Positions 3,231 to 55,673 of a stretch of 64,000 nucleotides of DNA are shown piece by piece. Below the pieces are notes generated by a model. The model ran no database searches. It saw nothing but the letters and a program-made list of their open reading frames with translations, and had not been told where the DNA came from. This DNA is from Phytoamicus setariae (GTDB lineage Bacteria; Pseudomonadota; Alphaproteobacteria; Rhizobiales; Rhizobiaceae), in assembly GCF_016722925.1 (NCBI RefSeq), contig NZ_JAEQNC010000011.1, forward strand, positions 1 to 64,000. Reading direction: 5' to 3'. Numbering within the stretch: position 1 is the stretch's first letter; the number at the start of each line of letters is the position of its first letter. The position numbers and the translations under genes are program-made.

Positions 3231-3238
3231 AGACATAA

Positions 3239-39581: not shown

Positions 39582-40556
39582 ATGCTGCTATCCGGACTGA
39601 TTTCGAATTTGCGTTACGGCGTTTTAGCATTGGCCACAATCGGCTGCCTTTCCTCGACCGCGCTCGCGCAGGAGGTGGAATCGTCCGATCCGATCAAGGT
39701 GGCGCTGTTCGATTGGACCAGCGTCAATCTCAACGCCAGGATCTATGGCGGCATTCTCGAAAAGCTTGGCTATACCGTCGAGTATCCAACGGCGGACTAC
39801 CTTTCCAGCCTGACCACGGGACTGACCAACGGCGACCTGTCCATCGGCATGGAATACTGGGCGACGACTGCCGGAGAGGCAATGGCCGCCTCAGACGCGA
39901 CTGGCCAGACTGAAAATCTCGGCACGCTCGGCCCAAAGGCCAAGGAGGAGTGGTGGTTTCCTGAATATATGAAGGCGAAATGCCCGGGTCTGCCGAATTG
40001 GGAAGCACTGAAGGATCCGAAATGTGCGGAGGCCTTCTCCACTCCTGAGACGGCACCCAAGGGTCGTTATGTCGGGGGGCCGGTGACCTGGGAAGGCTTT
40101 GACGACGAACGGGTGGCGGCACTTGGATTGCCTTTCACCGTCATCCATGCCGGCACTGATGCCGCGATGTTTGCGGAACTGGAATCGGCCTACCAGCGCC
40201 AGGCGCCGATCATGCTCTGGATCTACTCGCCGCATTGGGCGCCGGCGAAATACAAGGGCGAATGGCTGCAATTTCCGGAATACACCAAGGAGTGCTATAC
40301 CGACCCGAAATGGGGTTCCAACCCGGATGCTAAATACGATTGCGGCAAGCCGCATGGCGAGATCTTCAAATATGTCTGGTCAGGCATGAAGGACAAATGG
40401 CCGGGCGCCTATAAGCTTGCCAGGAATTACAAGATCGACACCGACGTGCTCAACAAGATGAGTGGCGAGATCGACCTTGACGGCAAGACCCCGGAAGATG
40501 TCGCGGCTGCATGGATCGATGCCAACGAAGCGACCTGGAAGGAATGGGCCAAGTAA
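39582..40556 (+). CDS. tmoX: Quaternary amine/TMAO ABC transporter substrate-binding protein (TmoX-like)
   Basis: A 324-residue periplasmic binding protein of the OpuAC/ProX family. The signal peptide runs to about ALAQ (residue 32). Aromatic residues expected to form the cation cage for a trimethylammonium or N-oxide group are seen in FDWTS, GMEYWATT, EEWWFPEYM and LWIYSPHWAP. The ATG at 39582 follows CGGGAGA. The following two genes encode the ATPase and permease. Glycine betaine or choline is the generic substrate of this family. The presence of tdm and tmm in the same cluster makes trimethylamine N-oxide, as for Ruegeria TmoX, the better guess. Confidence 0.78.
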   Translation: MLLSGLISNLRYGVLALATIGCLSSTALAQEVESSDPIKVALFDWTSVNLNARIYGGILEKLGYTVEYPTADYLSSLTTGLTNGDLSIGMEYWATTAGEAMAASDATGQTENLGTLGPKAKEEWWFPEYMKAKCPGLPNWEALKDPKCAEAFSTPETAPKGRYVGGPVTWEGFDDERVAALGLPFTVIHAGTDAAMFAELESAYQRQAPIMLWIYSPHWAPAKYKGEWLQFPEYTKECYTDPKWGSNPDAKYDCGKPHGEIFKYVWSGMKDKWPGAYKLARNYKIDTDVLNKMSGEIDLDGKTPEDVAAAWIDANEATWKEWAK

Positions 40557-40638
40557 CGATCGCCCGATAGCACCGCAGCGGCCGCCGCCGAGCCCTGCCG
40601 GCGGCCGCACAACATGCTCCAGTACCGAGGTATCCCGC

Positions 40639-41742
40639 ATGAATGGCGTTGCCGATATCAGCGCGACAGCACTTCACCGTGAAACGACCGAGCTGCGACC
40701 AATCAAGCTTGCATGCCGCAATCTCTGGAAGCTTTTCGGTGCGACGGCTGCCCAGTTCATCGCGACCCAGGATGGCCGGGCCAGCGCCGAGGACATAGCC
40801 TCCGCCGGCCTTGTCGGAGCTGTGCGCGGCATAGATCTCGAAGTACGCCAAGGCGAGATCTTCATCATCATGGGCCTTTCAGGCTCCGGAAAATCGACGC
40901 TCGTTCGCTGCATGTCACGACTGATCGAGCCGACCTTCGGCAAAATGGAATTCGAGGGCAGGGACCTGCTGAAAATATCCGAAGCCGAGCTGATCGAGCT
41001 TCGACGCCACCGCATGGGCATGGTTTTTCAGAATTTCGCGCTGTTGCCGCATCTCAACGTCATCGAAAATATCGCCTTTCCCCTGAGCATTCAGGGCATG
41101 GCAAAAGCTGAGCGCGACAGCAGGGCGCGCGAAATGATCGAGCTGGTCAGCCTAAAGGGCCGCGAGCATTTCTACCCGCGCGAATTGTCGGGCGGCCAGC
41201 AACAGAGGGTGGGCATCGCACGCAGCCTTGCCACAAATCCGGACATCTGGTTTCTCGATGAACCGTTCTCCGCACTCGATCCGCTGATCCGCCGGGAAAT
41301 GCAGGATGAGTTGATGCGATTGCAGGCAGTTCTGAAAAAGACGATCGTCTTCATCACCCATGATTTCGACGAAGCAATCCGGCTGGCCGACAAGGTTGCG
41401 ATCATGAAGGATGGCGAGATCATCCAGATCGGCACGCCGGAAGAACTCGTTGTCCACCCGGCTACAGACTATGTGGCGGAATTCACCCGCGATGTGCAGC
41501 GGGCGAAGGTGGTATCCGCCCGTCGCCTGATGCAGCCGCCGGATGGCCATGAATATGGCGGCTCAGTCTCGCCTGATGCCAGGATTTCGACCTTCTCGTC
41601 AGCCATCGTCTCCGCGGGCAAGCCGTTTGCCGTGGTCGATGGTTCGGGGCAGATACTCGGCGAAGTGACCCCGCAGGCGGTCGTCGCGCTGCTGGCAGAT
41701 GTCGGCGAAAGGAACAGGTCAGATGGCAGCCATCGCCTCTGA
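40639..41742 (+). CDS. tmoW: Quaternary amine/TMAO ABC transporter ATP-binding protein (TmoW-like)
   Basis: A 367-residue ABC ATPase of the ProV/OpuAA type. Walker A is GLSGSGKSTL, the signature is LSGGQQQRVGIARSL, Walker B is IWFLDEPFSALD, and the H-loop is VFITHD. The N-terminal extension (RNLWKLFGATAAQFIA) is typical of ProV. The C-terminal about 85 residues (ISTFSSAIVSAGKPFAVVDGSGQILGEVTPQAVV) look like one degenerate CBS-like repeat. The ATG at 40639 follows CCGAGG. The 3' end overlaps the permease gene by 20 nt, so the two are translationally coupled. Confidence 0.82.
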   Translation: MNGVADISATALHRETTELRPIKLACRNLWKLFGATAAQFIATQDGRASAEDIASAGLVGAVRGIDLEVRQGEIFIIMGLSGSGKSTLVRCMSRLIEPTFGKMEFEGRDLLKISEAELIELRRHRMGMVFQNFALLPHLNVIENIAFPLSIQGMAKAERDSRAREMIELVSLKGREHFYPRELSGGQQQRVGIARSLATNPDIWFLDEPFSALDPLIRREMQDELMRLQAVLKKTIVFITHDFDEAIRLADKVAIMKDGEIIQIGTPEELVVHPATDYVAEFTRDVQRAKVVSARRLMQPPDGHEYGGSVSPDARISTFSSAIVSAGKPFAVVDGSGQILGEVTPQAVVALLADVGERNRSDGSHRL

Positions 41743-43711
41743 AACAGAAGCCGTTGGCAGGCGCGCGATCAATAGATGGCATGCGATCTGGCCGCTGGCA
41801 TTGTTGGCCGTCGCCGCGCTTTTCCTGATGCGCGACATGTTTCCCAACGCGGTAACCTACCCGAGTGATGCGGTGGTACCGTTGGCAGACTGGATTTCAG
41901 CGATCATGGTGTGGCTGAAGAGCAATATCAGCTGGCTGACGCGAACGATAACGGCGGTGCTCGATGTGCCGCTGGATCTTGCCATGGACCTGTTGGCCAA
42001 GGGCTTCAAGATTGGCCGGGGGCTTGATGCGATTGCACTGCCGCGGCTCTCCTGGGTGGGGATCTGCGCTGCCGCCTTTGTCGCGGGACGTGCCTATGGC
42101 GGCAACCGCCTTGGTTTTCTGGTCGGCGGCTGCTTCCTCTACATCGCGCTGTTCGGCAAGTGGACGAGCGCAATGCTGACACTGGCCTTGATCGTCATCG
42201 CCGTCCCGTTCTGCGTGATGACCGGATTGCTCGTCGGAATCTGGGCGTGGCGGCAACCGTGGGCAAACCGGGTACTGGTTTCGCCCGCGCTGGACTTGAT
42301 GCAGACCATTCCCACGTTTGCCTACCTGATCCCGATGCTGCTGCTGTTCGGAAACAGCCCCGTTTCGGCGATGATCGCCACCGCCATCTTCGCCACCCCG
42401 CCCATGGTGCGCGCCACGATGCTGGGCTTGAGCCGCGTGCCCTCGGAGATTGTCGATTTCAGCGACATGGCCGGCTGTACTCGCTCCCAGAAGCTCTGGC
42501 GCGTATTGGTCCCGGCGGCGCAACCGACGCTGATGGTCGGTGTCAACCAGGTTATCATGCTGGCGCTGAACATGGTGATCATCGCCTCGATGATCGGCGC
42601 AGGCGGCCTGGGCTATGACGTCCTGCTGGCGTTGCGCGCGCTCAAGGTTGGCGAAGCGATGGAGGCGGGTCTGGCGATTGTGGCGCTTGCCATTGCGCTC
42701 GACCGGCTGAGCCAGGCAATCGCGGTGCGACAGTCCGGGTCGAAACCCGGCAGCAATGACGCCGAACCGATCTGGAAGCGTTACCCGAACCTCACGCTCG
42801 CCGTCGCACTTGTCGTGGCCGCTACACTGGCAAGCCTGGTCATCCCTGCCTTTGCGCAACTGCCGAAATCGCTGACGCTGAGTACTGCTCCCTTCTGGAA
42901 AGCGGCGTTGAACTGGGTCACCATCAACTTGTTTGACGCCATCGAGGTTTTCCGCGTGAGCCTGATCCTCTATGTGCTCAACCCGCTGCGTGCCTTCTGC
43001 GAGGGTTTTCCATGGCTCGGGGCGGTTTTTCTGCTGGGACTTGCCGGCTTTCAACTCGGTGGAATTCGCCTCGCATTGACTGTAGCACTGCTGACGGCGT
43101 TTTGTGCGGTGACCGGCCTGTGGGAAAAGACGATGGCGACCGTCTATCTCTGCGGCATTTCCGCCTTTGTCGCCTGCCTGTTCGGCATTCCGCTCGGGCT
43201 TGTTGCAGCCCGCAGCGACCGCTTTGAGCGGTTCATCACGCCAATGATCGACACGCTGCAGGTACTGCCGTCTTTCTGTTTTATCATTCCGGTGGTGATG
43301 CTGTTCCGTGTCGGCGATGTAACCGCGATGATCGCCACGGTGGCCTTCGCGATCGTGCCGGCCATCCGTTACACCAACCACGGCATCCGGCAGGTGCCGC
43401 CATCGCTGGTGGAAGCTGCCCTCGTTTCGGGCTGCACCAGGCGACAACTGTTCTGGAGGGTACAGTTGCCCGTCGCGCTGCCGGAAATCATGCTCGGCAT
43501 CAACCAGACCATCCTGATGGCACTGGCGATGATCATCATCTGCGCGATGATCGGCACCCGGGACCTCGGCCAGGAAGTGTTCATAGCCCTGTCCAAGGCG
43601 GATTCCGGACGCGGCATTGTTGCGGGCCTGGCAATCGCTTTTATCGGCATTGTGGCCGACCGGCTTTTCAATGCGTTGAGCGCCAAGCGCCGCAGCGCGA
43701 TCGCGGGTTAG
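41723..43711 (+). CDS. tmoV: Fused two-domain ABC permease (TmoV-like)
   Basis: A 662-residue inner-membrane permease with two BPD_transp_1 halves in one chain. Each half has its EAA loop: FSDMAGCTRSQKLWRVLVPAAQPTLM in the first and EAALVSGCTRRQLFWRVQLPVALPEIM in the second. Each half is flanked by several transmembrane helices, and a soluble linker lies near residues 335-360. ProW/OpuAB proteins normally have a single such domain, whereas fused permeases of this size are found with TMAO transporters. The ATG at 41723 follows AAAGGA. It ends 4 nt into the stop of the convergent cupin gene. Confidence 0.82.
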   Translation: MAAIASETEAVGRRAINRWHAIWPLALLAVAALFLMRDMFPNAVTYPSDAVVPLADWISAIMVWLKSNISWLTRTITAVLDVPLDLAMDLLAKGFKIGRGLDAIALPRLSWVGICAAAFVAGRAYGGNRLGFLVGGCFLYIALFGKWTSAMLTLALIVIAVPFCVMTGLLVGIWAWRQPWANRVLVSPALDLMQTIPTFAYLIPMLLLFGNSPVSAMIATAIFATPPMVRATMLGLSRVPSEIVDFSDMAGCTRSQKLWRVLVPAAQPTLMVGVNQVIMLALNMVIIASMIGAGGLGYDVLLALRALKVGEAMEAGLAIVALAIALDRLSQAIAVRQSGSKPGSNDAEPIWKRYPNLTLAVALVVAATLASLVIPAFAQLPKSLTLSTAPFWKAALNWVTINLFDAIEVFRVSLILYVLNPLRAFCEGFPWLGAVFLLGLAGFQLGGIRLALTVALLTAFCAVTGLWEKTMATVYLCGISAFVACLFGIPLGLVAARSDRFERFITPMIDTLQVLPSFCFIIPVVMLFRVGDVTAMIATVAFAIVPAIRYTNHGIRQVPPSLVEAALVSGCTRRQLFWRVQLPVALPEIMLGINQTILMALAMIIICAMIGTRDLGQEVFIALSKADSGRGIVAGLAIAFIGIVADRLFNALSAKRRSAIAG

Positions 43712-44070
43712 TCAACCGCAATTTCCGGACCAGCGATATGCACCGCCAGCAGGCAACCTTCGGGACTGTGGGAGCAATGCTCTGTCCCATCCTTGAACCA
43801 GACCAGATCACCCTTCCTGAAAACGGTTCCATCGTTCTCGATCAACTCGCCTTCAAGGATCAGGAACTGCTCGTGGCCATTATGGCGATGCGGCCGCGTC
43901 GTCATGCCGGCCGGCATCCGATAGACGTGAAAGCCGGTGCCAAGCGGCAGGCTTTTGTCGAGCTGCAGAACGCTGTCGCCAAGTGCCGTGCCATCGTCAT
44001 AGACAAACGGCTCGAATTCGGTGTCGTAGATGTTGGCGACCTTTCGTTCGGCGGGTTCAACATTGCGCAT
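43708..44070 (-). CDS. Small cupin domain protein
   Basis: A 120-residue single-domain cupin. Motif 1 is HRHNGHEQFLILEGEL, giving three His and one Glu as likely metal ligands, and motif 2 is FRKGDLVWFKDGTEHCSHSPEG. There is no DNA-binding domain. A strong AGGAGG precedes the ATG at 44070. Its stop codon overlaps that of tmoV, leaving no room for a terminator between the convergent genes. It lies within the methylated-amine cluster. A role as a metal-dependent enzyme or a formaldehyde or amine binding protein is possible, but nothing in the sequence settles it. Confidence 0.82.
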   Translation of the reverse strand: MRNVEPAERKVANIYDTEFEPFVYDDGTALGDSVLQLDKSLPLGTGFHVYRMPAGMTTRPHRHNGHEQFLILEGELIENDGTVFRKGDLVWFKDGTEHCSHSPEGCLLAVHIAGPEIAVD

Positions 44071-44127
44071 GGTTCGTTCCTCCTGAAGTGAATGTTAGCC
44101 GGACAAACATCCTTGCCAAGTAGAATC

Positions 44128-44162
44128 GGCGCGTCCCTGCCAATATATGGCAGGGACGCGCC
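44128..44162. repeat. Perfect 15-bp palindrome with 5-nt loop
   Basis: GGCGCGTCCCTGCCA (44128-44142), loop ATATA, then TGGCAGGGACGCGCC (44148-44162). It lies between the cupin and APC permease genes. The outer GGCGCGTCCC arm is also found in the hairpin after tmm at 49446-49477. Confidence 0.75.
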
Positions 44163-44181
44163 GGCATTCCGACGGATGAAA

Positions 44182-44199
44182 GCGCGGCTGTCGCCGCGC
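44182..44199 (-). terminator. Terminator of the APC permease gene
   Basis: GCGCGGC (44182-44188), loop TGTC, GCCGCGC (44193-44199). On the minus strand it is followed by TTTC, about 15 nt past the permease stop codon. Confidence 0.6.
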
Positions 44200-44214
44200 C
44201 TTATGCAAGCCCCA

Positions 44215-46005
44215 TCAAGATGGCAGCTGGAAGAACCAGTTGGCCCAGAGCACGATCACCAGCCCGACCGTCAATGCGAGGTACGGCAGGATGCCCGCAC
44301 GCCGGACGCCGAGATCCTGGCCCGTGAGGCCCAGATCCTCCATCGCGGCGGCCGGGAACTTGCCGCCGTCACGCACATAGTGCCGCCAGGCAAAGACCGG
44401 CAGGATCATGGCGGCGAAGATGAAGCCCACCCACAACGCGTTGGAGTAGCCCCAGACCTTGGCACCCGCACCAAGGAACAGCACGTTGACGAAGGCCAGC
44501 AACGTGTTGAGTCCGATCAGCCAGGTCGGCGCCTTCCACGGACGCTCGATGTGGGGGGAATCCATCCGATGGATCCAGCCTGCATTGAGGTTGAGGAAGT
44601 TGAAGATGATGTAGCCGACATTGGAAACCGCGAGCACGAAGAAATAGCCGCCGGCATCCGAGGCGATTGCCAGCAGGAACAAATTGAAGCCGAAATCGGT
44701 CCACATCGCCCGCGTCGGCGCGCCGTGCTCGTTGGTGTGGTCGAGATATTTCGGCAGCCAACCGTCCTTCGAGCCTTGGTAGAGCGTCCGCGACGATCCG
44801 GCCATTGCCGTCATGATTGCCAGGAACAGCGCCATGATCATCAGGATGACGAGGATCTGCGTGACGATGCGGCCGCCATGCACCATGTTCGCCAGCGCTT
44901 CGCCGACACCCGTTCCATCAACGATACCTGGCGCCAGCATGCCGGCATGACCAAGAACGCCCTGGAAGGTGAACGGAACGAGGAAGAAGAACAGGCAACA
45001 AAGCAGACCCGAATAGAAGATCGCCTTGAAGGTATCCCGCTTCGGATCCTTCAGTTCGCGCGTATAGCAGACGGCGGTCTCGAACCCGTAGGTCGACCAG
45101 GCGGCAATATAGAGACCACCGAGAAACAGCGTCCATCCGCCGACCGTCCAGGCACCGTCAATGCCGGAATAGCCGGCAGTCGGGGGTACCAGCCCTGTGA
45201 CATTGCCCCACTCGATCGCACCGGTGAAGATCGGATACAGGCCGATCAGCAGCAATGGCACGAGGACGATGATCGCCAGCCATTTCTGCACGTTGGCGGT
45301 GCCTTCGATGCCGCGATGCTGGATCGCAAAAATGATCAGCATCAGAATGCCGCCGATCACGAAAGTGGCATTGATATTTGCAGTCGCCAGGAACGGAATG
45401 TTGAAGCTGGCCAGCGACCAGCCGCGAATCATCGGCGTCAGGGCCGCGATTGCATCGCTGGTCAGCAGTGCCTTGACCGCCACGTCCGGCGTCGCGCCCG
45501 CATTGGCCGCGATGTATTCCGCCACACGCGGACTATCGGCCGCGAGGCTCGCTGCGTTGGCCGCAATCCAGTCGAGTACCGGTTGGGAGTCAGCCAGCGG
45601 GATCGGGAACAGCGCGTTGAGGATATAACCGGCGGCGATCGCACAGCCGAGCGAAAGGACCGGCGACCACGCAAACCAGTTGCACCATACCGAGAGCGGC
45701 GCGATGAACTTCGAATACCGTAGCCAGGCCGTCGCGCCGTAGATTGAGGCGCCGCCCGACTTGTTGCCGAACATGCCCGCAATTTCCGCATACGTGAAGG
45801 ATTGCAGGAAGCCCATGACCATCGAAATGATCCAGACCAGAAAGGCAAGTTTGCCGGTGGTGCCGGCAATGCCGCCAATGGAAAAGAGAACGAGGGGCGG
45901 TACGCCCGCGGCGACCCAGAAGGCGCCTTTCCAATCGAGTGCGCGGTGGAGATTGCTGCTGCTGGTAGCCGCAGGCACTCCTCCCGCTTCCAATACTTGT
46001 GTCAT
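44215..46005 (-). CDS. APC-superfamily amino acid/amine permease
   Basis: A 596-residue inner-membrane transporter with about 12-14 transmembrane helices. The first helices carry the APC pattern (FWVAAGVPPLVLFSIGGIAGTTGKLAFLVWIISM, then FTYAEIAGMFGNKSGGASIYG). YGFETAVCYTRELKDPKRDTFKAIFYSG and RTLYQGSKDGWLP are typical amino-acid-permease loops. A large periplasmic insert (about 150-210) contains DAIAALTP and ADSPRVAEYIAANAG. The ATG at 46005 has GAGGAG about 10 nt upstream, sitting in a small hairpin. It is divergent from tdm inside the methylated-amine cluster, so an amine such as trimethylamine or dimethylamine, or an amino acid made from methylamine, is a plausible substrate. Confidence 0.8.
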   Translation of the reverse strand: MTQVLEAGGVPAATSSSNLHRALDWKGAFWVAAGVPPLVLFSIGGIAGTTGKLAFLVWIISMVMGFLQSFTYAEIAGMFGNKSGGASIYGATAWLRYSKFIAPLSVWCNWFAWSPVLSLGCAIAAGYILNALFPIPLADSQPVLDWIAANAASLAADSPRVAEYIAANAGATPDVAVKALLTSDAIAALTPMIRGWSLASFNIPFLATANINATFVIGGILMLIIFAIQHRGIEGTANVQKWLAIIVLVPLLLIGLYPIFTGAIEWGNVTGLVPPTAGYSGIDGAWTVGGWTLFLGGLYIAAWSTYGFETAVCYTRELKDPKRDTFKAIFYSGLLCCLFFFLVPFTFQGVLGHAGMLAPGIVDGTGVGEALANMVHGGRIVTQILVILMIMALFLAIMTAMAGSSRTLYQGSKDGWLPKYLDHTNEHGAPTRAMWTDFGFNLFLLAIASDAGGYFFVLAVSNVGYIIFNFLNLNAGWIHRMDSPHIERPWKAPTWLIGLNTLLAFVNVLFLGAGAKVWGYSNALWVGFIFAAMILPVFAWRHYVRDGGKFPAAAMEDLGLTGQDLGVRRAGILPYLALTVGLVIVLWANWFFQLPS

Positions 46006-46011
46006 TGATAT

Positions 46012-46130: not shown

Positions 46131-46266
46131 CGCATCCCGCCAACGCGTTACCAAGAGTGAATAATTTTTCATACAGGTCAAGAGGGCTTTACATGCGGAC
46201 CGGGTTTGAGAAATAATATTTTTGCGCTTTGCAGGGTAGAAGTGCAGCGCGGAGACGGGAGGCGAC

Positions 46267-48636
46267 ATGCAGGAAACCGATTTACAAGCACCCAGGCTCA
46301 CGCCGCCGAGGCCGAGCATCGTGCTGCAGCCGGGGATATCCTCACTGCCTGCGGGAACCGAGCGATATCGCGTGCGCGGTGCTGGCTCGTTGGTCGTGCG
46401 CGTTGCCGCCGGCGACCGGGTACTGCTGACAGACATCGAGGGCTGTCAGCCCTGCGAAGTGACGTTCGTCGATGCCACGGGCGCGTTCGACGCCAGTGGA
46501 CTGGGCTCGAAATTCACCAACTCCGCCGAGGGGCTGAAATCCATCCTCGCATCGAGCGATCCGAGCGCAGCCCGAACATTGGCTGCCTTGCGTCGCCGCG
46601 GAGTCGATCTTGCCCAGGCCGGGGCCTTACGGCTTTTTGGCGCTTTCAGCGCACCTGGCAGCAACGCCGATCTGATCGTAAGCCGGGAAGGGCTGCTGAT
46701 CGTGGCGGCGCCTGGAAGCGCCATGTTGCCAGATGGACAGGACACCAGCACGCCTATCGAAGTCCGCATCGCGCACAGCCACTTCGAGCGTTCCTACGAA
46801 TCGCTGTTGCCCGAACCGATCGCCGATCCCATTCAGGATCTGCGCGTCCGCGCCGCCACCGCATCCGCCTATTTCGTGCGGGCCGGCGAGTTCATCCAGA
46901 TCATCGACGTGTCGGGCCGGCAATGTACAGATTTTCAGGCATTTGCCGCCCGCAAGGTCGACAAGGGGCTGGATCTCGCACTCGATTCCACCATTACCCG
47001 CACGCTGCTCGGTCGCTCCTATCCGATGCCCGGGCTGCCGTCGAAGGCGTTCGACCGGGAGTTCGAACCGCTTGTGGAGATCGTGCAGGATACCGTCGGC
47101 CGCCACGACGCCTTCGCCACGGCCTGCAACTCGCGCTACTATGACGACATGGGCTATCCCGGCCATGTCAACTGCACCGACAATTTCAATGCGGTGCTGG
47201 CGCCTTACGGTGTTGCTCCGCGCAAGGGCTGGGAAGCGATCAACTATTTCTACAACACCAATATCGACCACAACAACCAGCTCTATCTCGACGAGCCGTG
47301 GTCGCGCCCCGGCGACTATGTGTTGATGCGGGCGCTGACGGATCTTGTCTGCGTCTCCTCTTCCTGCCCCGACGACATCGATGCCGCCAATGGCTGGAAC
47401 CCGACCGACATCCACGTCCGGACATTCTCGGACAAACAGAAATTCTCCAGAGCGGTAGCTTATCGAATGACCCCAGATGCCGACGCCGAACTGACGCGGG
47501 AAACCGCATTCCATCCACGTTTTTCTGAAATGACCCGCGATTTCGCCGAATATCGCGGTTACTGGCTTGCCAACCGCTTCACGTCGACAGGACCGATCGA
47601 GGAATATTGGGCTTGTCGCGAGGCGGCGGTGATTACCGACCTGTCGCCGCTGCGCAAATTCGAGGTGACTGGCCCGGATGCCGAAGCACTGCTGCAATAT
47701 TGCCTGACGCGCGACGTGCGCAAGCTTTCGACCGGTCAGGTCGTCTATTCGGCCATGTGCTACGAACATGGCGGCATGATCGACGACGGCACCTTGTTCC
47801 GGCTCGGTGACAACAATTTCCGCTGGATTGGTGGTGACGACCAGAGCGGCATCTGGCTACGCCAGCAAGCCGAAAAAATGGGCTATCGTGCCTGGGTGCG
47901 CTCCTCGACAGACCAGATGCACAACATCGCCGTCCAGGGCCCCAAGAGCCGCGAAATCCTGAAAGATATCGTCTGGACCGCGCCGAAACAGCCGACCATT
48001 TCGGAACTGGAATGGTTCCGCTTCGCCGTCGGCCGCATCGGCGGCTTCGAGGGCGTGCCCATCGTCGTCTCCCGCACCGGCTATACCGGTGAACTCGGTT
48101 ATGAAATCTTCTGCCATCCGAAAGACGCCGTCGCTGTGTTCGATGCGGTATGGCAGGCTGGCGAACCGCATGGACTGAAGCCGCTGGGTCTTGAGGCACT
48201 TGACATGGTTCGCATCGAGGCGGGGCTGATTTTTGCCCATCACGAGTTTACCGACCAGACCGATCCCTTCGAAGCCGGCATCGGCTTCACGGTTCCGCTT
48301 AAATCAAAGGGAGACGATTTCATCGGCCGCGATGCGCTGATCAAACGCAAGGAAAATCCGCGCCACATCCTTGTTGGACTCGATATCGATTCAACGGAAG
48401 GCGCGGGCCACGGGGATTGCATCCATATCGGCCGGGCGCAGGTCGGCGTCGTGACCTCGGCAATGCGCTCGCCGATCCTGAAGAAGTCCATCGCACTGGC
48501 ACGCGTTGAAGCGATCCATGCCGCAGTGGGCACGGAAGTCGAGATCGGCAAATTGGATGGCCACCAGAAGCGGCTGCCAGCCGTGATCGTTCCGTTGTCG
48601 CACTATGATCCGCAGAAGACACGGCCGCGCAGCTGA
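46267..48636 (+). CDS. tdm: Trimethylamine N-oxide demethylase Tdm (DUF1989 + GcvT domains)
   Basis: A 789-residue cytoplasmic enzyme converting TMAO to dimethylamine plus formaldehyde, with the formaldehyde captured on tetrahydrofolate. The N-terminal half contains DUF1989 (about 190-385). Its Zn site is predicted at C287, C303 and C367 (ATACNS, VNCTDN, SSSCPDD). These spacings of 16 and 64 match those I recall for the Methylocella silvestris enzyme (C263, C279, C343). The C-terminal half (about 420-780) is GcvT N- and C-domain, with SRTGYTGELGYEIF and GLEALDMVRIEAGLIFA. The ATG follows GGGAGG. It is divergent from the APC permease gene and convergent with the PAS/MCP gene. Confidence 0.88.
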   Translation: MQETDLQAPRLTPPRPSIVLQPGISSLPAGTERYRVRGAGSLVVRVAAGDRVLLTDIEGCQPCEVTFVDATGAFDASGLGSKFTNSAEGLKSILASSDPSAARTLAALRRRGVDLAQAGALRLFGAFSAPGSNADLIVSREGLLIVAAPGSAMLPDGQDTSTPIEVRIAHSHFERSYESLLPEPIADPIQDLRVRAATASAYFVRAGEFIQIIDVSGRQCTDFQAFAARKVDKGLDLALDSTITRTLLGRSYPMPGLPSKAFDREFEPLVEIVQDTVGRHDAFATACNSRYYDDMGYPGHVNCTDNFNAVLAPYGVAPRKGWEAINYFYNTNIDHNNQLYLDEPWSRPGDYVLMRALTDLVCVSSSCPDDIDAANGWNPTDIHVRTFSDKQKFSRAVAYRMTPDADAELTRETAFHPRFSEMTRDFAEYRGYWLANRFTSTGPIEEYWACREAAVITDLSPLRKFEVTGPDAEALLQYCLTRDVRKLSTGQVVYSAMCYEHGGMIDDGTLFRLGDNNFRWIGGDDQSGIWLRQQAEKMGYRAWVRSSTDQMHNIAVQGPKSREILKDIVWTAPKQPTISELEWFRFAVGRIGGFEGVPIVVSRTGYTGELGYEIFCHPKDAVAVFDAVWQAGEPHGLKPLGLEALDMVRIEAGLIFAHHEFTDQTDPFEAGIGFTVPLKSKGDDFIGRDALIKRKENPRHILVGLDIDSTEGAGHGDCIHIGRAQVGVVTSAMRSPILKKSIALARVEAIHAAVGTEVEIGKLDGHQKRLPAVIVPLSHYDPQKTRPRS

Positions 48637-48695: not shown

Positions 48696-49295
48696 TCAGG
48701 CCGACCTGCGCTGCGCCGAAGCGATCGCGCGTGCGGTGGTTTCCGAGTCGTTGGCGAGATTGCGCATTTCAGTCGCCAGCACGGCAAAGCCTTGCCCGGC
48801 AGCCCCAGCGCGCGCCGCCTCGATGCCGGCATTGACGGCAAGCAGCTTCAGATAGCGCAGCGAATGCAGAATCTCGCCGGTCCGCGACGCGGTAATCCGC
48901 ATGTCGGCTGTCTGCTCGTCCAGGCGCTGATAAAGCGATTCGATATTGATGATGCTGCCTTCGAGATACAGCAGTTGGCCGTCATCGCCCCAGACGCCGC
49001 CGCCGGTTTCGGTAACCCAGATGTAGTGCCCCTTCTGATGACGGATGCGATACTCCATCGTCCAGTCGGTCTTGGTATCGAGTGCCTTGCCCACGGCCTC
49101 GTCCATGCGCGGCACATCTTCCTCGCACATGATTGACGTAAATGTCCTGATGGTGTTGCCGACGATCTCGGCGGCTGGGTAGCCGAAAATTCGGGAAATC
49201 CCGTCCGTCATCTCGAGCATTGTATAGTTTTCATCCGCACGGCACCTGTAAAGGAATCCGTTCATGCGACCAAGAACGCTGTTTTGAAAATCCAT
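48696..49295 (-). CDS. Short soluble PAS-MCP protein (truncated chemoreceptor-like)
   Basis: A 199-residue cytoplasmic protein. A PAS domain (about residues 10-120, with MTDGISRIFGYPAAEIVG, GHYIWVTETGGGVW and a PAC-like LYLEGSIINI) is followed by a short helical segment. That segment resembles the tip of the MCP signalling hairpin (LLAVNAGIEAARAGAAGQGFAVLATEMRNLA). It lacks transmembrane helices, a HAMP domain and most of both signalling-domain arms. The canonical IAxQTNLLALNA is replaced by LRYLKLLAVNA. The preferred start is the ATG at 49295; a GTG at 49304 is alternative. It lies between tdm and tmm, so a sensory role tied to methylated amines is plausible but unproven. Confidence 0.75.
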   Translation of the reverse strand: MDFQNSVLGRMNGFLYRCRADENYTMLEMTDGISRIFGYPAAEIVGNTIRTFTSIMCEEDVPRMDEAVGKALDTKTDWTMEYRIRHQKGHYIWVTETGGGVWGDDGQLLYLEGSIINIESLYQRLDEQTADMRITASRTGEILHSLRYLKLLAVNAGIEAARAGAAGQGFAVLATEMRNLANDSETTARAIASAQRRSA

Positions 49296-49441
49296 GGGTA
49301 CCACGTGAAATTAGATCAAGGATATAATCATCAGGAAGTATTGTCGAATGTGGATAATAATTTCTTACTATGCGTATGCTTTGCTTCGACAAAATGATGA
49401 ATTTCAGTCTTTCATGAGGCGCATATATCGCCTCGCAATAC

Positions 49442-49477
49442 GAAAAGGCGCGCCCCTCGTGCGATGGGGACGCGCCT
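49442..49477 (-). terminator. Terminator of the dmm-tmm operon
   Basis: AGGCGCGCCCC (49446-49456) pairs with GGGGACGCGCCT (49466-49477), an 11-bp stem with one bulged A and a loop of 9 nt. On the minus strand it is followed by TTTTCG. It lies about 50 nt after the tmm stop. Confidence 0.75.
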
Positions 49478-49527
49478 GATTCTTCTCTAGCTCGAAAGAT
49501 TTAACTCCGGGCGGGTAGAAACTCGCC

Positions 49528-50865
49528 CTAGTTCTTCAGATAGGCCTCCATGGAATCATCAAGTTCCTCCAGCCAAGGGGTATGATGCTTGGGCGACATC
49601 GTGCCGGTCATCAGAGATCTATAGGAATTGTTGCGGAAGCCCATGATGTCTTCCGCCTTGTGGTGTTCCCACTGCATGAACGTCTTGTTGGTGCCCTGGA
49701 TATCGAAGCTCGGATAATCCGTCGCATCGATCAGTTCCTGCACATAGTCGCCCTGGAACCAGATCATCTGTTCGGCATCTTCCAGCGTCTCCTCGCGGGC
49801 ACGCCACTTGTCGAAATCCGCCTTGAGTTCGGCTTCCGCCGGCAGTTCGATACGACCGAGGATGAGGTCGCGGACATACCAGGCCTGGGCATCGAACATG
49901 TTGAATGTATAGAACTGGTCCTGCATGCCGAGATAGAAAAGCTTCGGGTTGTTCTCGAACACCACCCCCTTGTGCAGCATGTCCGACCACAGGCGGTTTG
50001 CCGTCTTCAAACGCAGTGAATCCGGCAGGAACGGGAAGTGATGCAGGTATCCCGTGCACAGGATCAGCGCGTCGATTTCCTTGCTTGACCCGTCCTTGAA
50101 ATAGGCCGTCTTGCCCTTCAGATGGGTGATCAGCGGCCGCTCCTCGAAGCGTTCTGGCCAATTGAAACCCATAGGCTTGGAGCGATAGGTGGTCGTCACC
50201 GACCTGGCGCCATATTTCCAGCACTGCGAACCGATGTCTTCAGCCGAATAGGACCGGCCGACAAGAAGCACGTCCTTATCCTTGAATTCGCGGGCATCGC
50301 GGAAATCATGGGCATGCAGCACGCGGCCATTGAAGCTCTCGACACCCTCGAAATAAGGTACGTGCGGCGTCGAAAAGTGACCGGATGCCACGACGACATG
50401 GTCGAATTCCTCATCATACATCACGTCTTTGACACGGTCGTGCGCCGTGACCGTGAACTTCTGCGTCTCTTCGTCGAAATTGACCATGCGGACCGGCGTA
50501 TTGAAGCGCACCCAGTCCTTGACGTTGGCCTTCTCGACCCGACCCTTGATGTAATCCCAGAGCACGGCGCGCGGCGGGTAGGAGGCGATCGGCTGGCCGA
50601 AATGCTCCTCAAAGGAATAGTCTGCGAATTCGAGGCATTCCTTCGGACCGTTCGACCAGAGATAGCGATACATCGAACCGTGTACCGGCTCGCCATATTG
50701 ATCGAGACCGGTGCGCCAGGTGTAGTTCCACAGACCGCCCCAATCCGCCTGCTTTTCGAAACAGACTATCTCCGGGATTTTTGCACCCTTTTGGGCGGCC
50801 GATTGAAATGCTCGCAATTGCGCCGTGCCGGAAGGGCCGGCTCCGATAACTGCTACTCTGGTCAT
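49528..50865 (-). CDS. tmm: Trimethylamine monooxygenase Tmm (flavin-containing monooxygenase)
   Basis: A 445-residue bacterial class B flavin monooxygenase oxidising trimethylamine to TMAO with NADPH and O2. The FAD-binding site is GAGPSG (8-13). The FMO identity motif is [11 protein letters not shown] (178-188), the NADPH site is GRSYSAED (203-210), and [11 protein letters not shown] is the conserved distal motif. Long stretches ([48 protein letters not shown]) match the Methylophaga and Methylocella enzymes as I know them, making this more specific than a generic FMO. It is the last gene of the dmmD-dmmA-dmmC-dmmB-tmm operon and is preceded by AAAGGGA. Confidence 0.93.
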
Positions 50866-50915
50866 GAAACGTTCCCTTTATTGATTATGCGTATTCCAAT
50901 TGGCGCTTGCGGCAA

Positions 50916-51956
50916 TCAATCCGGCGAAAACCCGGGGCTCGTCGGTGCGCCGTCATCGTATTTCGAAAGCCAGTCGATCGTCGCTTCGCGATAGCGTGTC
51001 AGTCCCTTGTAATCGATGAGCTCGGGCGGCAATGTGCGCAGTACACGCGGCAGCCGCCGAGCCCATTTCGGCACCGTAACGATCTCGTTCATGTTCATCA
51101 GGTAGCAGCGGATGACGAACAGCATGGCGTTGGAGCGCGGCAGGCGCCACAGCGTCTGCAGTTCCACGCGCAGATGCACCTTTTCGCCGACATTTTCCGG
51201 CGTCACCGTCGCCCGGTCCGTTCCCCATTTCGGATAGTTTTCCGGGCTGGTGTCGAGGCGCGGGTTGATCGTCATCGTCCAGTTGAAGCGGCGAACCGGC
51301 TTGCCCTGCTGCAGGTTCAACAGGAACTTCAGCGCGCGCTCGAACACGCCGATCTGGTGGGCGAGCGGCACCGGCCCGTGCCATTCCATGAAATTCATGC
51401 CGATATCGAAATCGAGCGACCAGTCCGCCTGCGTGGTCACCATGCCGGCATCCATCCACAGATTGCCGTCGCGCTGGTCGACGATGCAGAAGTCGCCTTG
51501 CGCCTGCCGGGTGATGTATTCCATCGGCTCATAGGGCAGGGTGGAACGATCGCCGAAGGTGAATGTATCGTCGATCCCGAGCGGTCGGTTGATCCACCGC
51601 CATTGATCACCGTTCCGGATCAGGGTGAAGTGCTCCGGATAGCCCGCGGCTTGCTGCTCCATCAGCAGCTCCAGCGTATCCCATTGCGCCGCCATCATGT
51701 GTGGCAGAGCCTGACAGCGCAGCGGGTCTTCCTTCAGCACCAGTGCCCGGTCGCGCATCTCGGAAATGTAGTGCTCATCGACGTCGATCAGGCTTTCGTA
51801 CACCGTATTCTTGGCGCCCAGCACATGCGGTTCCATATTGACGGCGTACATGTAGTCGTCGCGGTCGAAAGGAAAGGGAAAACGCCTGATGTTTTCCGGA
51901 CTGTTGCGATAGGTGAAGTCATCGCGAAAAGTCTCTTGCTTGAACATGATTGCCAT
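50916..51956 (-). CDS. dmmB: DUF3445 heme-dependent oxidative N-demethylase, dimethylamine monooxygenase subunit
   Basis: A 346-residue protein of the DUF3445 (heme-dependent oxidative N-demethylase) family. Typical family segments are RFPFPFDRDDYMYAVNMEP near the N-terminus, the Trp-rich GDQWRWINRPLGIDD, and RFNWTMTINPRLDTSP. It is predicted to be the oxygenase component that N-demethylates dimethylamine to monomethylamine. The ATG at 51956 follows GGGGA; a TTG at 51962 and an ATG at 51947 are alternatives. It lies between the ferredoxin reductase gene and tmm. The family is clear, but which Dmm letter this subunit has in published systems is from memory and may be swapped. Confidence 0.8.
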   Translation of the reverse strand: MAIMFKQETFRDDFTYRNSPENIRRFPFPFDRDDYMYAVNMEPHVLGAKNTVYESLIDVDEHYISEMRDRALVLKEDPLRCQALPHMMAAQWDTLELLMEQQAAGYPEHFTLIRNGDQWRWINRPLGIDDTFTFGDRSTLPYEPMEYITRQAQGDFCIVDQRDGNLWMDAGMVTTQADWSLDFDIGMNFMEWHGPVPLAHQIGVFERALKFLLNLQQGKPVRRFNWTMTINPRLDTSPENYPKWGTDRATVTPENVGEKVHLRVELQTLWRLPRSNAMLFVIRCYLMNMNEIVTVPKWARRLPRVLRTLPPELIDYKGLTRYREATIDWLSKYDDGAPTSPGFSPD

Positions 51957-51986
51957 TCGCAAATTCCCCTATTTTTATTTTGCCGG

Positions 51987-52952
51987 CTAAAGGTCCAGTG
52001 CCAGCGACTTTCCCTGGAAGCGCGACACGCAGACCATGATCTTGCGCCCAGCCGCCTTTTCCTCTTGCGTAAGATAAATATCGTTGTGCTGAAGCGTGCC
52101 GTCGCAGCGAACCACGGCAGTCTCGCACTGGCCGCAGGCGCCGCCGCGGCACATGTAGGGCGCGTCCACACCTGCCTCCTCGACCGCTTCGAGAATGCTC
52201 TGGTGATCGCCAACGGTGACGGTCTTGCCCGACCGCGTCAGTTCGACTGCGAACTTCTCGCCCGGCGGCGGCGCAAGAAAGCGCTCCGAATGCAGGTTCT
52301 CCTTCGGCCAGCCCGCGTCACGGGCGGTGCGAAGACAGAAATCGCTCATGCCGGCGGGGCCGCAGACATAAAAGTGTGTGCCGAGCGGCTGGTTGTCGAG
52401 AATGTCAGCAAGGGGAATCCGGCCCCCTTCCTCGTCGACATAGACCTTGATCCGCTCGGGTCCGTATTCGTCGATCAGTTCCCGCCAATAAGCGCCATGA
52501 CTGCGAGAGCGGATGGCATAATGCAGTTCAAAAGCCGTGTTGCTGCGATGAAACTGCGACATCATCGCCAAAAATGGCGTTATCCCGATGCCACCCGCGA
52601 CCAGGATATGTTTACGGCCGCGCGCGTCAGCGGGAAAAAGATTGACCGGCTGGCTGATCGTCAGATGGTCGCCTTCCCGCACCTGTTCGTGCATGAAGGC
52701 CGAGCCGCCTCGTGATTCCTCGACCCGTAGCACGCTGATCTCGTAAGCCGAAGGATCATGCGGTGCCGACATTAGCGAGTAGGGATTGCGCCGCATGTGT
52801 CCGTCGCCGCGCATGGTGACGACGACATGCGCGCCCGCCGAAAAGATCGGCAAGGCCTGTCCATCCGTCCGCTCAAAACGGAAGCGCTTGATCTTGTCGG
52901 TGACCGGCGTGACCCGAGCCACGCGCACCGGGATATCCGCATTGATACTCAC
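51987..52952 (-). CDS. dmmC: Ferredoxin-NAD(P)H oxidoreductase component of dimethylamine monooxygenase
   Basis: A 321-residue phthalate-dioxygenase-reductase/VanB-type electron transfer protein. The FMN/FAD-binding barrel (about 1-100, with RRNPYSLMSAP) is followed by an NAD(P)-binding domain (HILVAGGIGITPFLAMM). The C-terminal [2Fe-2S] ferredoxin domain has cysteines in MCRGGACGQCET and, about 30 residues later, in MVCVSR. It would deliver electrons from NAD(P)H to the DUF3445 oxygenase. It starts with GTG at 52952, overlapping the dmmA stop (GTGA). Confidence 0.87.
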   Translation of the reverse strand: MSINADIPVRVARVTPVTDKIKRFRFERTDGQALPIFSAGAHVVVTMRGDGHMRRNPYSLMSAPHDPSAYEISVLRVEESRGGSAFMHEQVREGDHLTISQPVNLFPADARGRKHILVAGGIGITPFLAMMSQFHRSNTAFELHYAIRSRSHGAYWRELIDEYGPERIKVYVDEEGGRIPLADILDNQPLGTHFYVCGPAGMSDFCLRTARDAGWPKENLHSERFLAPPPGEKFAVELTRSGKTVTVGDHQSILEAVEEAGVDAPYMCRGGACGQCETAVVRCDGTLQHNDIYLTQEEKAAGRKIMVCVSRFQGKSLALDL

Positions 52953-53548
52953 GTAAACAATTCCTCCGGTTCCGGCGCGGTGCCGGGCTCTTCCGCATCG
53001 ATGTTGACCCCCTGGAAGGCGGCGAGCCTGCGGGAATAATGGTCACGCACCAGCAGGGAGAGGCCGCAATGGCTGCAGTTGAACGGGCTGACTGTGACGT
53101 TCTCCGTCGTACCCTTGCAATGTACGCACTGAACACGCCGCGCCAGCGATCCCCGATGTTCCGATACAATCGATCGGTAATCCATGCCGAAATCGATGCC
53201 GAGGCCCATCGCCTGACCAATGAAGCCCTCCGTTCCGGCCACATAGAGACGTGTGCCCATGGTCGCGTTGGTGAGCGAGCCTCTGAGGCGGAATAGCAGC
53301 GTCGCAATGGTCGGCGCCTGCCAACACTGATCGGCGCCTAGTGCGACGAGCGAACCGAAAGGATCCGTTTCACGTGAAGCACCCGCCGTGTAGAGGATCT
53401 CGCTGCGGGCGAGAACCTCCTTGTCTACCGTTTGCTCGAGAAGGGCGCGAGCACCTTCGCCTTCCAGTGCAAATATGTGCCGCTTGGCGTAGGGATCGAT
53501 CGTCAACCCCTCATAGACCGGGCGGCTTTTGATACCTTGAACGAGCAT
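52949..53548 (-). CDS. dmmA: DmmA-family small subunit with zinc-ribbon-like cysteines
   Basis: A 199-residue protein matching my recollection of the dimethylamine monooxygenase subunit DmmA family. The N-terminal about 135 residues are alpha/beta (HIFALEGEGARALLEQ, MGTRLYVAGTEGFIGQA). A C-terminal four-cysteine knuckle follows: C141 and C144 (CVHC), then C158 and C161 (CSHC), a zinc-ribbon or rubredoxin-like metal site, and an acidic tail. It is coupled to the reductase gene by a 4-nt overlap and starts about 12 nt after dmmD. Whether the metal site is structural or takes part in electron transfer cannot be told. Confidence 0.75.
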   Translation of the reverse strand: MLVQGIKSRPVYEGLTIDPYAKRHIFALEGEGARALLEQTVDKEVLARSEILYTAGASRETDPFGSLVALGADQCWQAPTIATLLFRLRGSLTNATMGTRLYVAGTEGFIGQAMGLGIDFGMDYRSIVSEHRGSLARRVQCVHCKGTTENVTVSPFNCSHCGLSLLVRDHYSRRLAAFQGVNIDAEEPGTAPEPEELFT

Positions 53549-53559
53549 GGCGCGCGCTC

Positions 53560-54693
53560 CTAGCCCTTGGCCGTCCGCTTCTTCTTTTCCGGATCGTCGA
53601 ACGTGATGGTGTGGGCAATCGCCTTGGCCTTGACGTTCTTGCCGCGCACTTCGAGCGGCACGCCCTGCTTGGCGACATCGACGTCCAGCCGCGCAATTGC
53701 CATCGATCGCTTCGTCAGCTTGGAGTAGCTCGGGCAGGTGATCACGCCGACCTTCTTGTCGCCGGCATAAACTTCGTCACCCAGATCGGTCGGACCATCG
53801 GCCTCGACCAGCAGGCCGAAGATCTTGAAGCGTTCCTTGCCCTTGAGCCGTGCATGCTCCTCTGCACCACGGAAGCCGGTCTTGCCCGGGCTGACGGTGA
53901 AGTCGAGACCAAGTTCCCAGAGGCTGTCGCCCGGAGGCTGGTCAGCAAACGGATACATCTGAGAATTGTCATAGGGATAAAACAGCAGGTAGCTTTCGAC
54001 CCGCAGCATATCCAGCACCGAGAAGCAGCAGGGCAGGATGCCCATGTCCTTGCCTTCGTCGAGGATGCGGTCCCAGACCATACCCGCATCCTGACCGCGA
54101 ACGAAGATCTCGTAGCCACGTTCGCCGGTATAGCCCGTGCGCGAAATCATCACCGGTGCGCCGAACAGCGTCGTCTGCATGTGATGGAAGTAATTGAGGT
54201 CGCGAATACCGGGCACGTGCTTGGCCAGGAAATCCACCGCGACCGGCCCCTGCAGCGACAGGTCGTGAAGATCGTCGTCAAACAGCACGGCGCAGTTGCG
54301 GCCGGCTGCCTGGCGGATGATTTCCTCATGCCCGGAACCGGAGCCATGCACCAGCATCCAGGAGTTCGGCCCTGTGCGATAAACGATGCAGTCGTCAGTG
54401 AACATGCCGCGATCGTTGAGCATGCAGGCATAGACAGAGCGACCAGGATAGATCTTGTTCATGTCCCGGGTGGTGATATAGTCGAGGACGGCGATGGCAT
54501 GCGGGCCGACCAGATGCACCTTCTTCAGTCCCGACACATCCATGAGGCCGGCCTTGGTGCGGACCGCGATATGTTCGGCATAGATGTCCTTGTCGTAGGT
54601 CCAGGCGGTACCCATACCGCTCCAGTCCTCGAGCTTGGAGCCCATTGCGCGGTGACGATCCGCGAGTGCCGAAAAACGCCAGCTGAGAGTCAT
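53560..54693 (-). CDS. dmmD: GcvT-like tetrahydrofolate-dependent aminomethyltransferase DmmD
   Basis: A 377-residue GcvT-family protein from the ATG at 54693 (MTLSWRFSALADRHRAMGSKL), with GGGGGA 7 nt upstream. Glycine-cleavage T motifs are visible (GLMDVSGLKKVHLVGP, SRTGYTGERGYEIFVRG, VLDMLRVESYLLFY, GFRGAEEHARLKGKERF). No gcvH or gcvP is nearby. First in the dmm-tmm operon, it is predicted to transfer the one-carbon unit released from dimethylamine to tetrahydrofolate, sparing the cell free formaldehyde. Confidence 0.85.
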   Translation of the reverse strand: MTLSWRFSALADRHRAMGSKLEDWSGMGTAWTYDKDIYAEHIAVRTKAGLMDVSGLKKVHLVGPHAIAVLDYITTRDMNKIYPGRSVYACMLNDRGMFTDDCIVYRTGPNSWMLVHGSGSGHEEIIRQAAGRNCAVLFDDDLHDLSLQGPVAVDFLAKHVPGIRDLNYFHHMQTTLFGAPVMISRTGYTGERGYEIFVRGQDAGMVWDRILDEGKDMGILPCCFSVLDMLRVESYLLFYPYDNSQMYPFADQPPGDSLWELGLDFTVSPGKTGFRGAEEHARLKGKERFKIFGLLVEADGPTDLGDEVYAGDKKVGVITCPSYSKLTKRSMAIARLDVDVAKQGVPLEVRGKNVKAKAIAHTITFDDPEKKKRTAKG

Positions 54694-55025
54694 TATCGTT
54701 CCCCCGATTATTTTACTCTGTGGAATATTTCTTTCCTGAGTATATTTAATTCTGGCCCGATGACAAGCGTGGCGGCCCCCAGAACAGGCAAAAAGCACAT
54801 GATGGAAAAACGCACCGCAAACACCTGAAATCAACGGCGTTGCGGATATATTAGGATGGCGATTCCCGCTTTTTTCTCGTGTTTTCTTGTCGTCCGAACC
54901 AAACTTTCGGCAACGCACGAATCATCGCGCCGGTTGCGGCATTGCCCGAGTCTCGTAATGTGCTAATTCAGAGCTTCGGCAATCGAGCTGCATCGTTGCC
55001 GACGCGAAAACAGGAGCCGAAAACC
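54694..55025. other. Divergent intergenic region dmmD / GST gene
   Basis: About 330 nt with no gene. It holds the dmmD promoter candidate and an upstream stretch of mixed composition. It is the only visible control region for the five-gene dmm-tmm operon, and no clear inverted-repeat operator was found by eye. Confidence 0.5.
54739..54766 (-). promoter_or_regulatory. Candidate promoter of the dmmD-tmm operon
   Basis: On the minus strand TTGTCA (54761-54766), 16 nt, TATACT (54739-54744): a near-consensus sigma-70 promoter, about 45 nt upstream of the dmmD start. Confidence 0.6.
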
Positions 55026-55673
55026 GTGGACCAGTTGAAACTTTACGTTGCCAACAAGAACTATTCATCCTGGTCGATGCGGCCTTGGCTGGCTATGAAA
55101 GCCGCCGGCATCCCTTTCACCGATGAATTGATCCCGTTCGACTACGAACACGGCAATCCGACAATCAAGGCGATCTCCGAAACAGGCATGGTCCCCCTGC
55201 TCGTGCATGGCGACTTCAAACTGTGGGAGTCGCTGGCGATCATTGAATATGTTGCCGAACTGTTTCCGGATGCTCCGGTCTGGCCATCTGCCCGGCAGGA
55301 TCGAGCCCTGGCCCGCGCTTATAGCCTGGAAATGATCAGCGGGTTTCGCGGTATTCGCAACGCCTGCCCGATGAACTTGAGGCGCCCACGCAAGGCCATG
55401 CCGATCACCGACAGCATGCGCGCGGACATCGTTCGCATCGAAAAGATCTGGCACGAAAGCGTGGCAAGAAGCGGCGGCCCCTTCCTGTTCGGCGCGTTTT
55501 CGGCCGTCGATGCGATGTTTGCTCCCGTCGTCAACCGGTTTGATGCCTACATGCTGACGGAACATCCAGAATCGCTGAAATACATGGCGGCAATGAAGGC
55601 TCATCCAGCCTGGATTGCCTGGGCCGGAGATGCCGCGAAGGAGACCTGGATCGTCGCGGAGGACGAGGCATAA
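55026..55673 (+). CDS. Glutathione S-transferase family protein
   Basis: A 215-residue GST. The thioredoxin-like N-terminal domain starts QLKLYVANKNYSSWSMRPWLAMKAAGIPF, where Ser residues in NYSSWS occupy the usual catalytic position, and ETGMVPLLVHGDFKLWESLAIIEYVAE is the glutathione-binding motif. An all-helical C-terminal domain with a GPFLFGAFSAVDAMFAPVV N-capping motif follows. The GTG at 55026 is chosen because AGGAG lies 9 nt upstream; the frame upstream is not family-like. It is divergent from dmmD, at the right end of the methylated-amine cluster. Whether it belongs to the cluster or to the conserved backbone is not clear. Confidence 0.88.
   Translation: MDQLKLYVANKNYSSWSMRPWLAMKAAGIPFTDELIPFDYEHGNPTIKAISETGMVPLLVHGDFKLWESLAIIEYVAELFPDAPVWPSARQDRALARAYSLEMISGFRGIRNACPMNLRRPRKAMPITDSMRADIVRIEKIWHESVARSGGPFLFGAFSAVDAMFAPVVNRFDAYMLTEHPESLKYMAAMKAHPAWIAWAGDAAKETWIVAEDEA

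Follow-up and report, generated by a model that had tools for sequence, protein, structure and literature searches.

The contig NZ_JAEQNC010000011.1 of Phytoamicus setariae (assembly GCF_016722925.1) carries, between mtgA and rpmF, a set of genes for the catabolism of trimethylamine (TMA), trimethylamine N-oxide (TMAO), and dimethylamine (DMA). The stretch that we analyzed, referred to as the window, comprises positions 1 to 64,000 of this contig, and all coordinates are those of this 64,000-nucleotide stretch unless a locus is named. The region was translated and its proteins were scanned against Pfam and NCBIfam at curated cut-offs, which identified tmoXWV, a small cupin gene, an APC-family permease gene, tdm, a gene for a short protein with a PAS domain and part of a methyl-accepting chemotaxis protein (MCP), tmm, and dmmDABC (Table 1). 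Every gene that a prior sequence-only reading had named between mtgA and rpmF was confirmed in this way, with the strands of the cupin and the permease corrected: the plus-strand open reading frames (ORFs) overlapping these two have no Pfam match, whereas the minus-strand ORFs do, which places the true genes on the minus strand. We favor, with a probability of roughly 0.8, the reading that this is the rhizobial form of a known TMA/TMAO/DMA pathway, drawn from the Rhizobiaceae pool and placed in the spacer between mtgA and gst of one genome.

An insert in the mtgA–gst spacer

Two sets of genomes were compared, a genus set of nine (the window genome and eight congeners) and a family set of 151, two of which belong to the genus. 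G-numbers denote genomes, with G000 the window genome and G007 its sister genome in the genus, and L-numbers denote fetched loci. In all eight congeners mtgA and rpmF are 871–917 bp apart, the TMA/TMAO set is missing from the junction, and the gap contains a gst 63–80% identical to that of the window, such that removing the island from the window would give the congener order (hisC, fpps, mtgA, gst, rpmF). Because the order mtgA-gst-rpmF is found in eight of eight congeners, gst is native to the junction and not, as had been proposed, a member of the set; the insert therefore lies in the short mtgA–gst spacer, at about 39227–55025.

Both mtgA and rpmF were found in 144 of the 151 family genomes and share a contig and strand in 137, the seven genomes with the two genes on different contigs or strands standing outside the gap count. 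Nearly all of the resolved gaps (135 of 137) measure at most 1,851 bp, the exceptions being G099 (6,820 bp) and the window genome (16,607 bp). The empty junctions in close relatives that the sequence-only reading had named as support for an insertion are thus present. As far as the assemblies tell, the insertion is real, and within the examined sets it is private to the window genome.

The junction varies elsewhere in the family as well. In G099, a member of another genus, the 6.8 kb mtgA–rpmF gap (L123, 3726–10399) has no gst match and carries genes for a LysR protein, a 2-oxoadipate dioxygenase, an FAD oxidase, an aldehyde dehydrogenase, and an aminotransferase; the mtgA–rpmF junction accepts other inserts. 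About 0.85 kb separates mtgA and gst in G079 and G135 (L140, 4479–5339; L141, 4250–5088), where the extra segment holds one minus-strand ORF of about 240–254 amino acids, and the gap of G037 is of similar size. On contig C24 of G004, mtgA and rpmF each occur twice with equal scores, in opposite orientation and about 13–15 kb apart, which reflects either a duplication in inverted orientation or an artifact of assembly.

No integrase, tRNA, or insertion sequence had been noticed at the ends of the island, and our scans agree. The 64-kb window contains no tRNA gene, and transposase and integrase families gave no match among the scanned island and flank proteins (not every window ORF was included). 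The longest direct word common to both boundary zones is 9 bp, which is at shuffle level: in 300 shuffles of these zones the longest word was 8 bp in 158 and at least 9 bp in 106. Composition as a sign of foreign origin was rejected, with the codon-usage distances of the twelve island genes plus gst (0.091–0.197) overlapping those of 21 neighbors (0.093–0.196).

A cassette frequent in rhizobia, and its routes

A scan of named genomes returned at least 594 stretches, at least 582 of them encoding a Tdm relative, and the best 80 loci were kept. Most of these loci bear the label of Rhizobium or its kin. The APC permease is present in 65, the short PAS-MCP protein in 45, Tmm in 66, and tdm together with tmm and dmmDABC in 56, and the core order and orientation (apc< tdm> mcp< tmm< dmmC< dmmB< dmmA< dmmD<) is exact in 40. 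Genes like tmoXWV lie close to Tdm in just five, and mtgA, rpmF, or gst was found near Tdm in none of the 80, 58 of which have long enough flanks on both sides. Within the family set, Tdm (E up to 1e-200) is present in 29 of 151 genomes. Among 72,556 plasmid records, 139 also encode it, and Rhizobium accounts for 95 of these; the PLSDB mobility classes of the 139 include 16 conjugative and 51 mobilizable records. The 20 plasmid DNA matches listed cover 59–60% of the insert at about 80% identity. The plasmid-borne cluster on pRL11 of R. johnstonii 3841 (L023) has the same order as the window, apc-tdm-mcp-tmm-dmmC-dmmB-dmmA-dmmD, with no tmoXWV of the window's kind in the fetched stretch. In G003, repC is on the same contig as the cluster, and so at least one congener has it on a repABC-type replicon. 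The contents of the island are a standard rhizobial cassette, frequent in rhizobia and not exotic; much of the pathway literature consulted concerns marine bacteria, along with a few methylotrophs from soil. A search of that literature by titles and abstract openings, with few subscription journals, returned no paper on the cluster in Rhizobium or on the short MCP protein, and absence in print is not claimed. Outside this group, Tdm homologues were seen on 20 Acinetobacter plasmid records, the eight listed being 52–57% identical over 77–80% of the protein.

A junction-protein tree (hisC, fpps, mtgA, gst, phaA; 16 rows) places the window genome and G007 as sisters (97/99), with G002, G003, and G008 in a separate clade. 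Trees of the island proteins Dmm, Tmm, and Tdm come from quick searches that give a single support value, and they contain no Roseobacter rows; 14 loci (L001–L012, L015, L080), which are paralogues within their own genome or duplicates of the window or of L119–L122, were excluded, and matches below the coverage or identity thresholds are also outside them. The window and G007 stand together in the Dmm tree (support 100), and in the Tmm and Tdm trees their group also includes Rhizobium sp. CG5, while G002, G003, and G008 group with Allorhizobium borbori and Ectorhizobium quercum. Monophyly of the genus (five rows) is rejected by the approximately unbiased test for Tmm (p = 0.00028), Dmm (0.00056), and Tdm (7.5e-5), and the incongruent Tmm and Tdm trees called for by the sequence-only reading were therefore obtained. 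These trees show at least two module lineages within the genus, and their conflict indicates relocation or exchange, mostly within the Rhizobiaceae. The earlier picture of a marine kind of gene set in an unexpected host is not upheld by this grouping of the window copies with a sister species and Rhizobium sp. CG5, by codon usage that matches the neighborhood, by the conserved core order, or by the predominance of Rhizobium among the Tdm plasmids.

Recent acquisition by horizontal transfer, with a marine bacterium or a methylotroph as donor, would be in keeping with the pathway having been worked out in Ruegeria and Methylocella (PMC5520151) and with the absence of the set from the junction in congeners. 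The nearest loci are nonetheless mostly labelled Rhizobiaceae, codon usage is ordinary, and among the 60 of 139 plasmid rows listed the Tdm proteins of Rhizobium are 78–83% identical to that of the window against 48–61% for those of Paracoccus/Thioclava, which together make such a donor highly improbable. In Paracoccus aminophilus, tdm and dmmDABC are located near tmm1 on an extrachromosomal replicon, pAMI6 (PMC4543880). Its Tdm on NC_022044.1 is 58% identical to the window's, and, unlike the window, the Paracoccus plasmids give no match to the short MCP protein at E up to 1e-40.

In the sister genome G007, the mtgA-gst-rpmF junction is empty and a complete set lies at another location, where the tmo block and the cupin gene are arranged differently. 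A narrower case of the reading we prefer is that the set descended from the ancestor of the window genome and G007 and then moved from another replicon, with no recent gain. The sister relationship in the junction and Dmm trees fits this, as does the likeness of island and core identities, while the presence of CG5 in the Tmm and Tdm groups (in Tdm, G007 has CG5 as a closer relative than the window) and the lack of a recognizable vacated site, sought by the right flank of the G007 copy, argue the other way. We regard this case as a serious contender, somewhat short of even odds. Tracing the vacated site by that flank was given up, as its genes are scattered in G000 over contigs C35, C37, C1, and C9.

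Beyond the observed gene content, empty sites, conserved order, and tree conflict, we infer the insertion mechanism and the direction and time of transfer. The set would have come from the Rhizobiaceae pool, where the block is also plasmid-borne, and would have arrived either by relocation between replicons within one lineage or by exchange between lineages, followed by insertion with no recognizable mobile element, most simply through illegitimate recombination. On this account, a catabolic cassette changes place between genomes with no obvious mobile element.

Several observations weigh against our reading of an insertion from the rhizobial pool. The eight core island proteins are 81–93% identical between the window and G007, tmoXWV and the cupin 74–86%, and the junction proteins 81%, and the set may predate the split of these two genomes and only have moved. 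Because island identity to the sister genome resembles core-gene identity, a fresh gain is not demonstrated, and of the horizontal gain proposed earlier it is the empty site and the tree conflict that stand. The vacated site was not recognized via the genes to the right of the G007 copy (the left flank was outside the search), and no plasmid record among the 119 matching spans 80% of the insert at the DNA level. Some of the best 80 loci are non-rhizobial by label (Inquilinus L032, Mycobacterium sp. KBS0706 L058, and the metagenome-assembled genomes L077 and L092), and the pocket of the TmoX-like protein departs from that of Ruegeria pomeroyi DSS-3 TmoX at three of seven positions. Finally, the placement is seen in one genome only and is known from an assembly, which may contain a mis-join. 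That singularity, in a draft of 37 contigs, would fit an assembly chimera, which we consider very unlikely: both joins fall within the same contig, none of the fetched relatives encodes the same island proteins, genome completeness is 99.91% and contamination 0.7%, and genomes of other genera have other genes in this interval. Overall, the interpretation given in the sequence-only reading is partly supported.

The short PAS-MCP protein

The part of the cassette most deserving follow-up is, in our view, the putative receptor-like protein of 202 amino acids encoded between tdm and tmm. It consists of one PAS domain followed by an MCP hairpin tip (PF00015, 49.6 bits; cut-off 34.6), the match covering positions 51–93 of the 172-position MCP signalling model. 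It shares this tip with typical MCPs and aligns there with tip structures such as 4jpb. Compared with full MCPs it has the tip only: a full signalling domain with methylation helices was not found, the ARAG tip motif beginning only 39 residues before the end of the protein and leaving no room for such helices, and no hydrophobic stretch is present (highest 19-residue mean 0.87). The PF00015 score and the invariant tip columns identify a hairpin tip of the kinase-contacting kind, with the contact itself predicted from sequence. AlphaFold models the PAS domain confidently and the helical hairpin with low confidence (block predicted local distance difference test values of about 48–65), and the hairpin model is not relied on; a fold search with the model returned PAS- or LOV-containing proteins among the 50 matches listed.

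Length was counted from homologous start to stop, with start codons assumed, in 47 distinct loci, seven loci (the window's own and duplicates) being left out. It is 198–203 residues in 46 of the 47 and 233 in one. The median dN/dS is 0.12 over 562 pairs with dS 0.2–1, which have ancestry in common. Across 34 aligned members (33 of the 47 loci plus the window) many tip columns are invariant, and PF00015 recognizes the tip in all 34 members scanned. The near-constant length, low dN/dS, and invariant tip columns argue that this is not a broken gene, and the pattern of substitution indicates purifying selection.

The distribution of the protein follows that of the closest Tdm proteins. It is found in eight of the 151 family genomes (E up to 1e-35), exactly the eight whose Tdm is at least 75% identical to that of the window; the chance of eight out of eight among 29 Tdm carriers is 7.7e-7 when genomes are treated as independent, which they are not. 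Its gene shares a contig with tdm in G077 and G104, at distances of about 18 and 44 kb, respectively. On plasmids it occurs in 95 records (E up to 1e-40), all from Rhizobium, Sinorhizobium, or Shinella; at least 40 of the 60 listed are among the 64 listed Tdm records, with the two genes 0.6–8.3 kb apart. Against a required role, the protein is lacking in 14 of 56 complete loci and in 21 of 29 Tdm carriers.

We tentatively propose, as a possibility with the odds against it, that the module brings its own minimal soluble receptor, which would lack adaptation helices, would act as an array plug-in or as a competitor for CheA/CheW, and would report the metabolic state of TMA/TMAO oxidation. If this were true, a mobile catabolic cassette would carry its own taxis or signalling switch, and the protein would be a concrete case for how little of an MCP suffices to act on an array.

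Pathway, importer, and annotation

The roles of the protein families have been published: Tmm oxidizes TMA to TMAO, Tdm splits TMAO, DmmABC demethylates DMA, and DmmD handles formaldehyde on tetrahydrofolate (PMC5520151 and PMC4543880). Substrate flow in the window can be inferred from these families. The TmoXWV-like ATP-binding cassette importer, perhaps with the APC permease, would import TMAO or a similar trimethylammonium compound, and Tmm would oxidize TMA to TMAO. Tdm would then yield DMA and a one-carbon unit for tetrahydrofolate, and DmmABC would convert DMA to monomethylamine (MMA) and formaldehyde, with DmmD helping to load the latter onto tetrahydrofolate. MMA would probably be finished by a locus of the GmaS/MgsABC type elsewhere in the genome. 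A candidate is located on contig C9 of the window genome (L152, 6934–12400), where a type III glutamine-synthetase-family gene (TIGR03105, 657.4 bits; cut-off 469.6) comes after genes whose Pfam domains are of the MgsABC type (glutamine amidotransferase, GXGXG, and glutamate synthase) and before a formyl-transferase-domain gene. We take the TIGR03105 family to include GmaS, and this locus is the probable MMA branch. Of the methylated-amine lifestyle suggested earlier, use of methylated amines as a nitrogen source is the likely part, and a methylotrophic lifestyle is not established.

In R. pomeroyi DSS-3 (tmm, tdm, tmoXWV, dmmDABC, mgsABC, gmaS), the enzymes and the dmmDABC order are the same as in the window (PMC5520151). 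The window differs in that its probable MMA genes are on another contig and that the APC permease and short MCP genes are inside the set.

Seven pocket residues of the DSS-3 TmoX are given in PMC8918994, and these were placed by hand on an alignment of the window protein with 4xz6. W55, W102, E131, and W177 are kept, and the window has A, W, and Y where DSS-3 has F106, F220, and W222. There are 39 TmoX matches in the family set, the best 12 of which were examined for the pocket. The A-W-Y combination is shared by the window and four others, all four in Tdm carriers, with tdm about 0.3 kb away in two cases, while seven have G-W-Y, one of these in a Tdm carrier. The TmoX proteins of L013 and L121, both loci chosen for Tdm, are also A-W-Y, and the more divergent Tdm-linked homologues at L083, L085, and L090 retain F/M, F, and W at these positions. 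The A-W-Y pocket appears to tie the window's TmoX-like type to the pathway, and the ligand of the importer is less certain.

Table 1 Features of the mtgA–rpmF interval and its flanks
Feature	Coordinates	Strand	Evidence
mtgA, left flank, outside insert	38465..39226	+	TIGR02070, 199.7 bits (cut-off 182.65)
Left boundary zone of insert	39227..39581		Similarity to the eight empty junctions fades at about the mtgA stop codon
tmoX-like, periplasmic binding protein	39582..40556	+	PF04069; best PDB chain 4xz6
tmoW-like, ATPase	40582..41742	+	PF00005; TIGR01186, 343.3 bits (cut-off 326.6)
tmoV-like, fused permease	41699..43711	+	PF00528 (BPD_transp_1), two stretches
Small cupin	43708..44070	-	PF12973, PF07883
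APC-family permease, possible second importer	44215..46002	-	PF13520
tdm, TMAO demethylase (DUF1989 + GcvT domains)	46267..48636	+	NF053776, 1259.1 bits (cut-off 1100)
PAS + MCP-hairpin-tip protein, 202 aa, putative receptor	48696..49304	-	PF08447, partial PF00015
tmm, trimethylamine monooxygenase	49528..50865	-	NF058570, 849.6 bits (cut-off 675)
dmmC, HODM-like subunit	50916..51962	-	PF11927
dmmB, reductase subunit	51987..52952	-	PF00111, PF00175, PF00970
dmmA	52949..53548	-	NF041259, 112.6 bits (cut-off 60); PF22290, PF22289
dmmD, GcvT-like	53560..54693	-	PF01571, PF08669
Right boundary zone of insert	54694..55025		Alignment with the eight empty junctions
gst, native junction gene, outside insert	55026..55673	+	GST_N/GST_C families
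rpmF, right flank, outside insert	55831..56016	+	Homologue in 149 of 151 family genomes

Both Tmm and Tdm exceed curated equivalog cut-offs, and among the Dmm proteins only DmmA passes a curated family model; subunit letters were assigned from domain content, and read on the minus strand from 54693 to 50916 the order is dmmD, dmmA, dmmB, dmmC. The closest solved relatives by sequence are 4xz6, which we take to be R. pomeroyi TmoX, for the TmoX-like protein, flavin-containing monooxygenase chains for Tmm, and TMAO demethylase 9q59 for Tdm. The start codon of the tmoW-like gene is uncertain, the ORF being open from 40462, and the short PAS-MCP gene has a GTG start with an alternative ATG possible at 49295. 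Promoter and terminator scans gave counts at chance (7 against a mean of 6.7 and 16 against a mean of 14.6). Between the cupin and APC permease genes, at 44127–44163, there is a strong 16-pair hairpin that is terminator-like on the minus strand, in a scan whose total is at chance. Far to the left of the insert, a SAM_alpha riboswitch at 3231–3308 (71.5 bits; gathering 36) lies upstream of an ORF at 3352.

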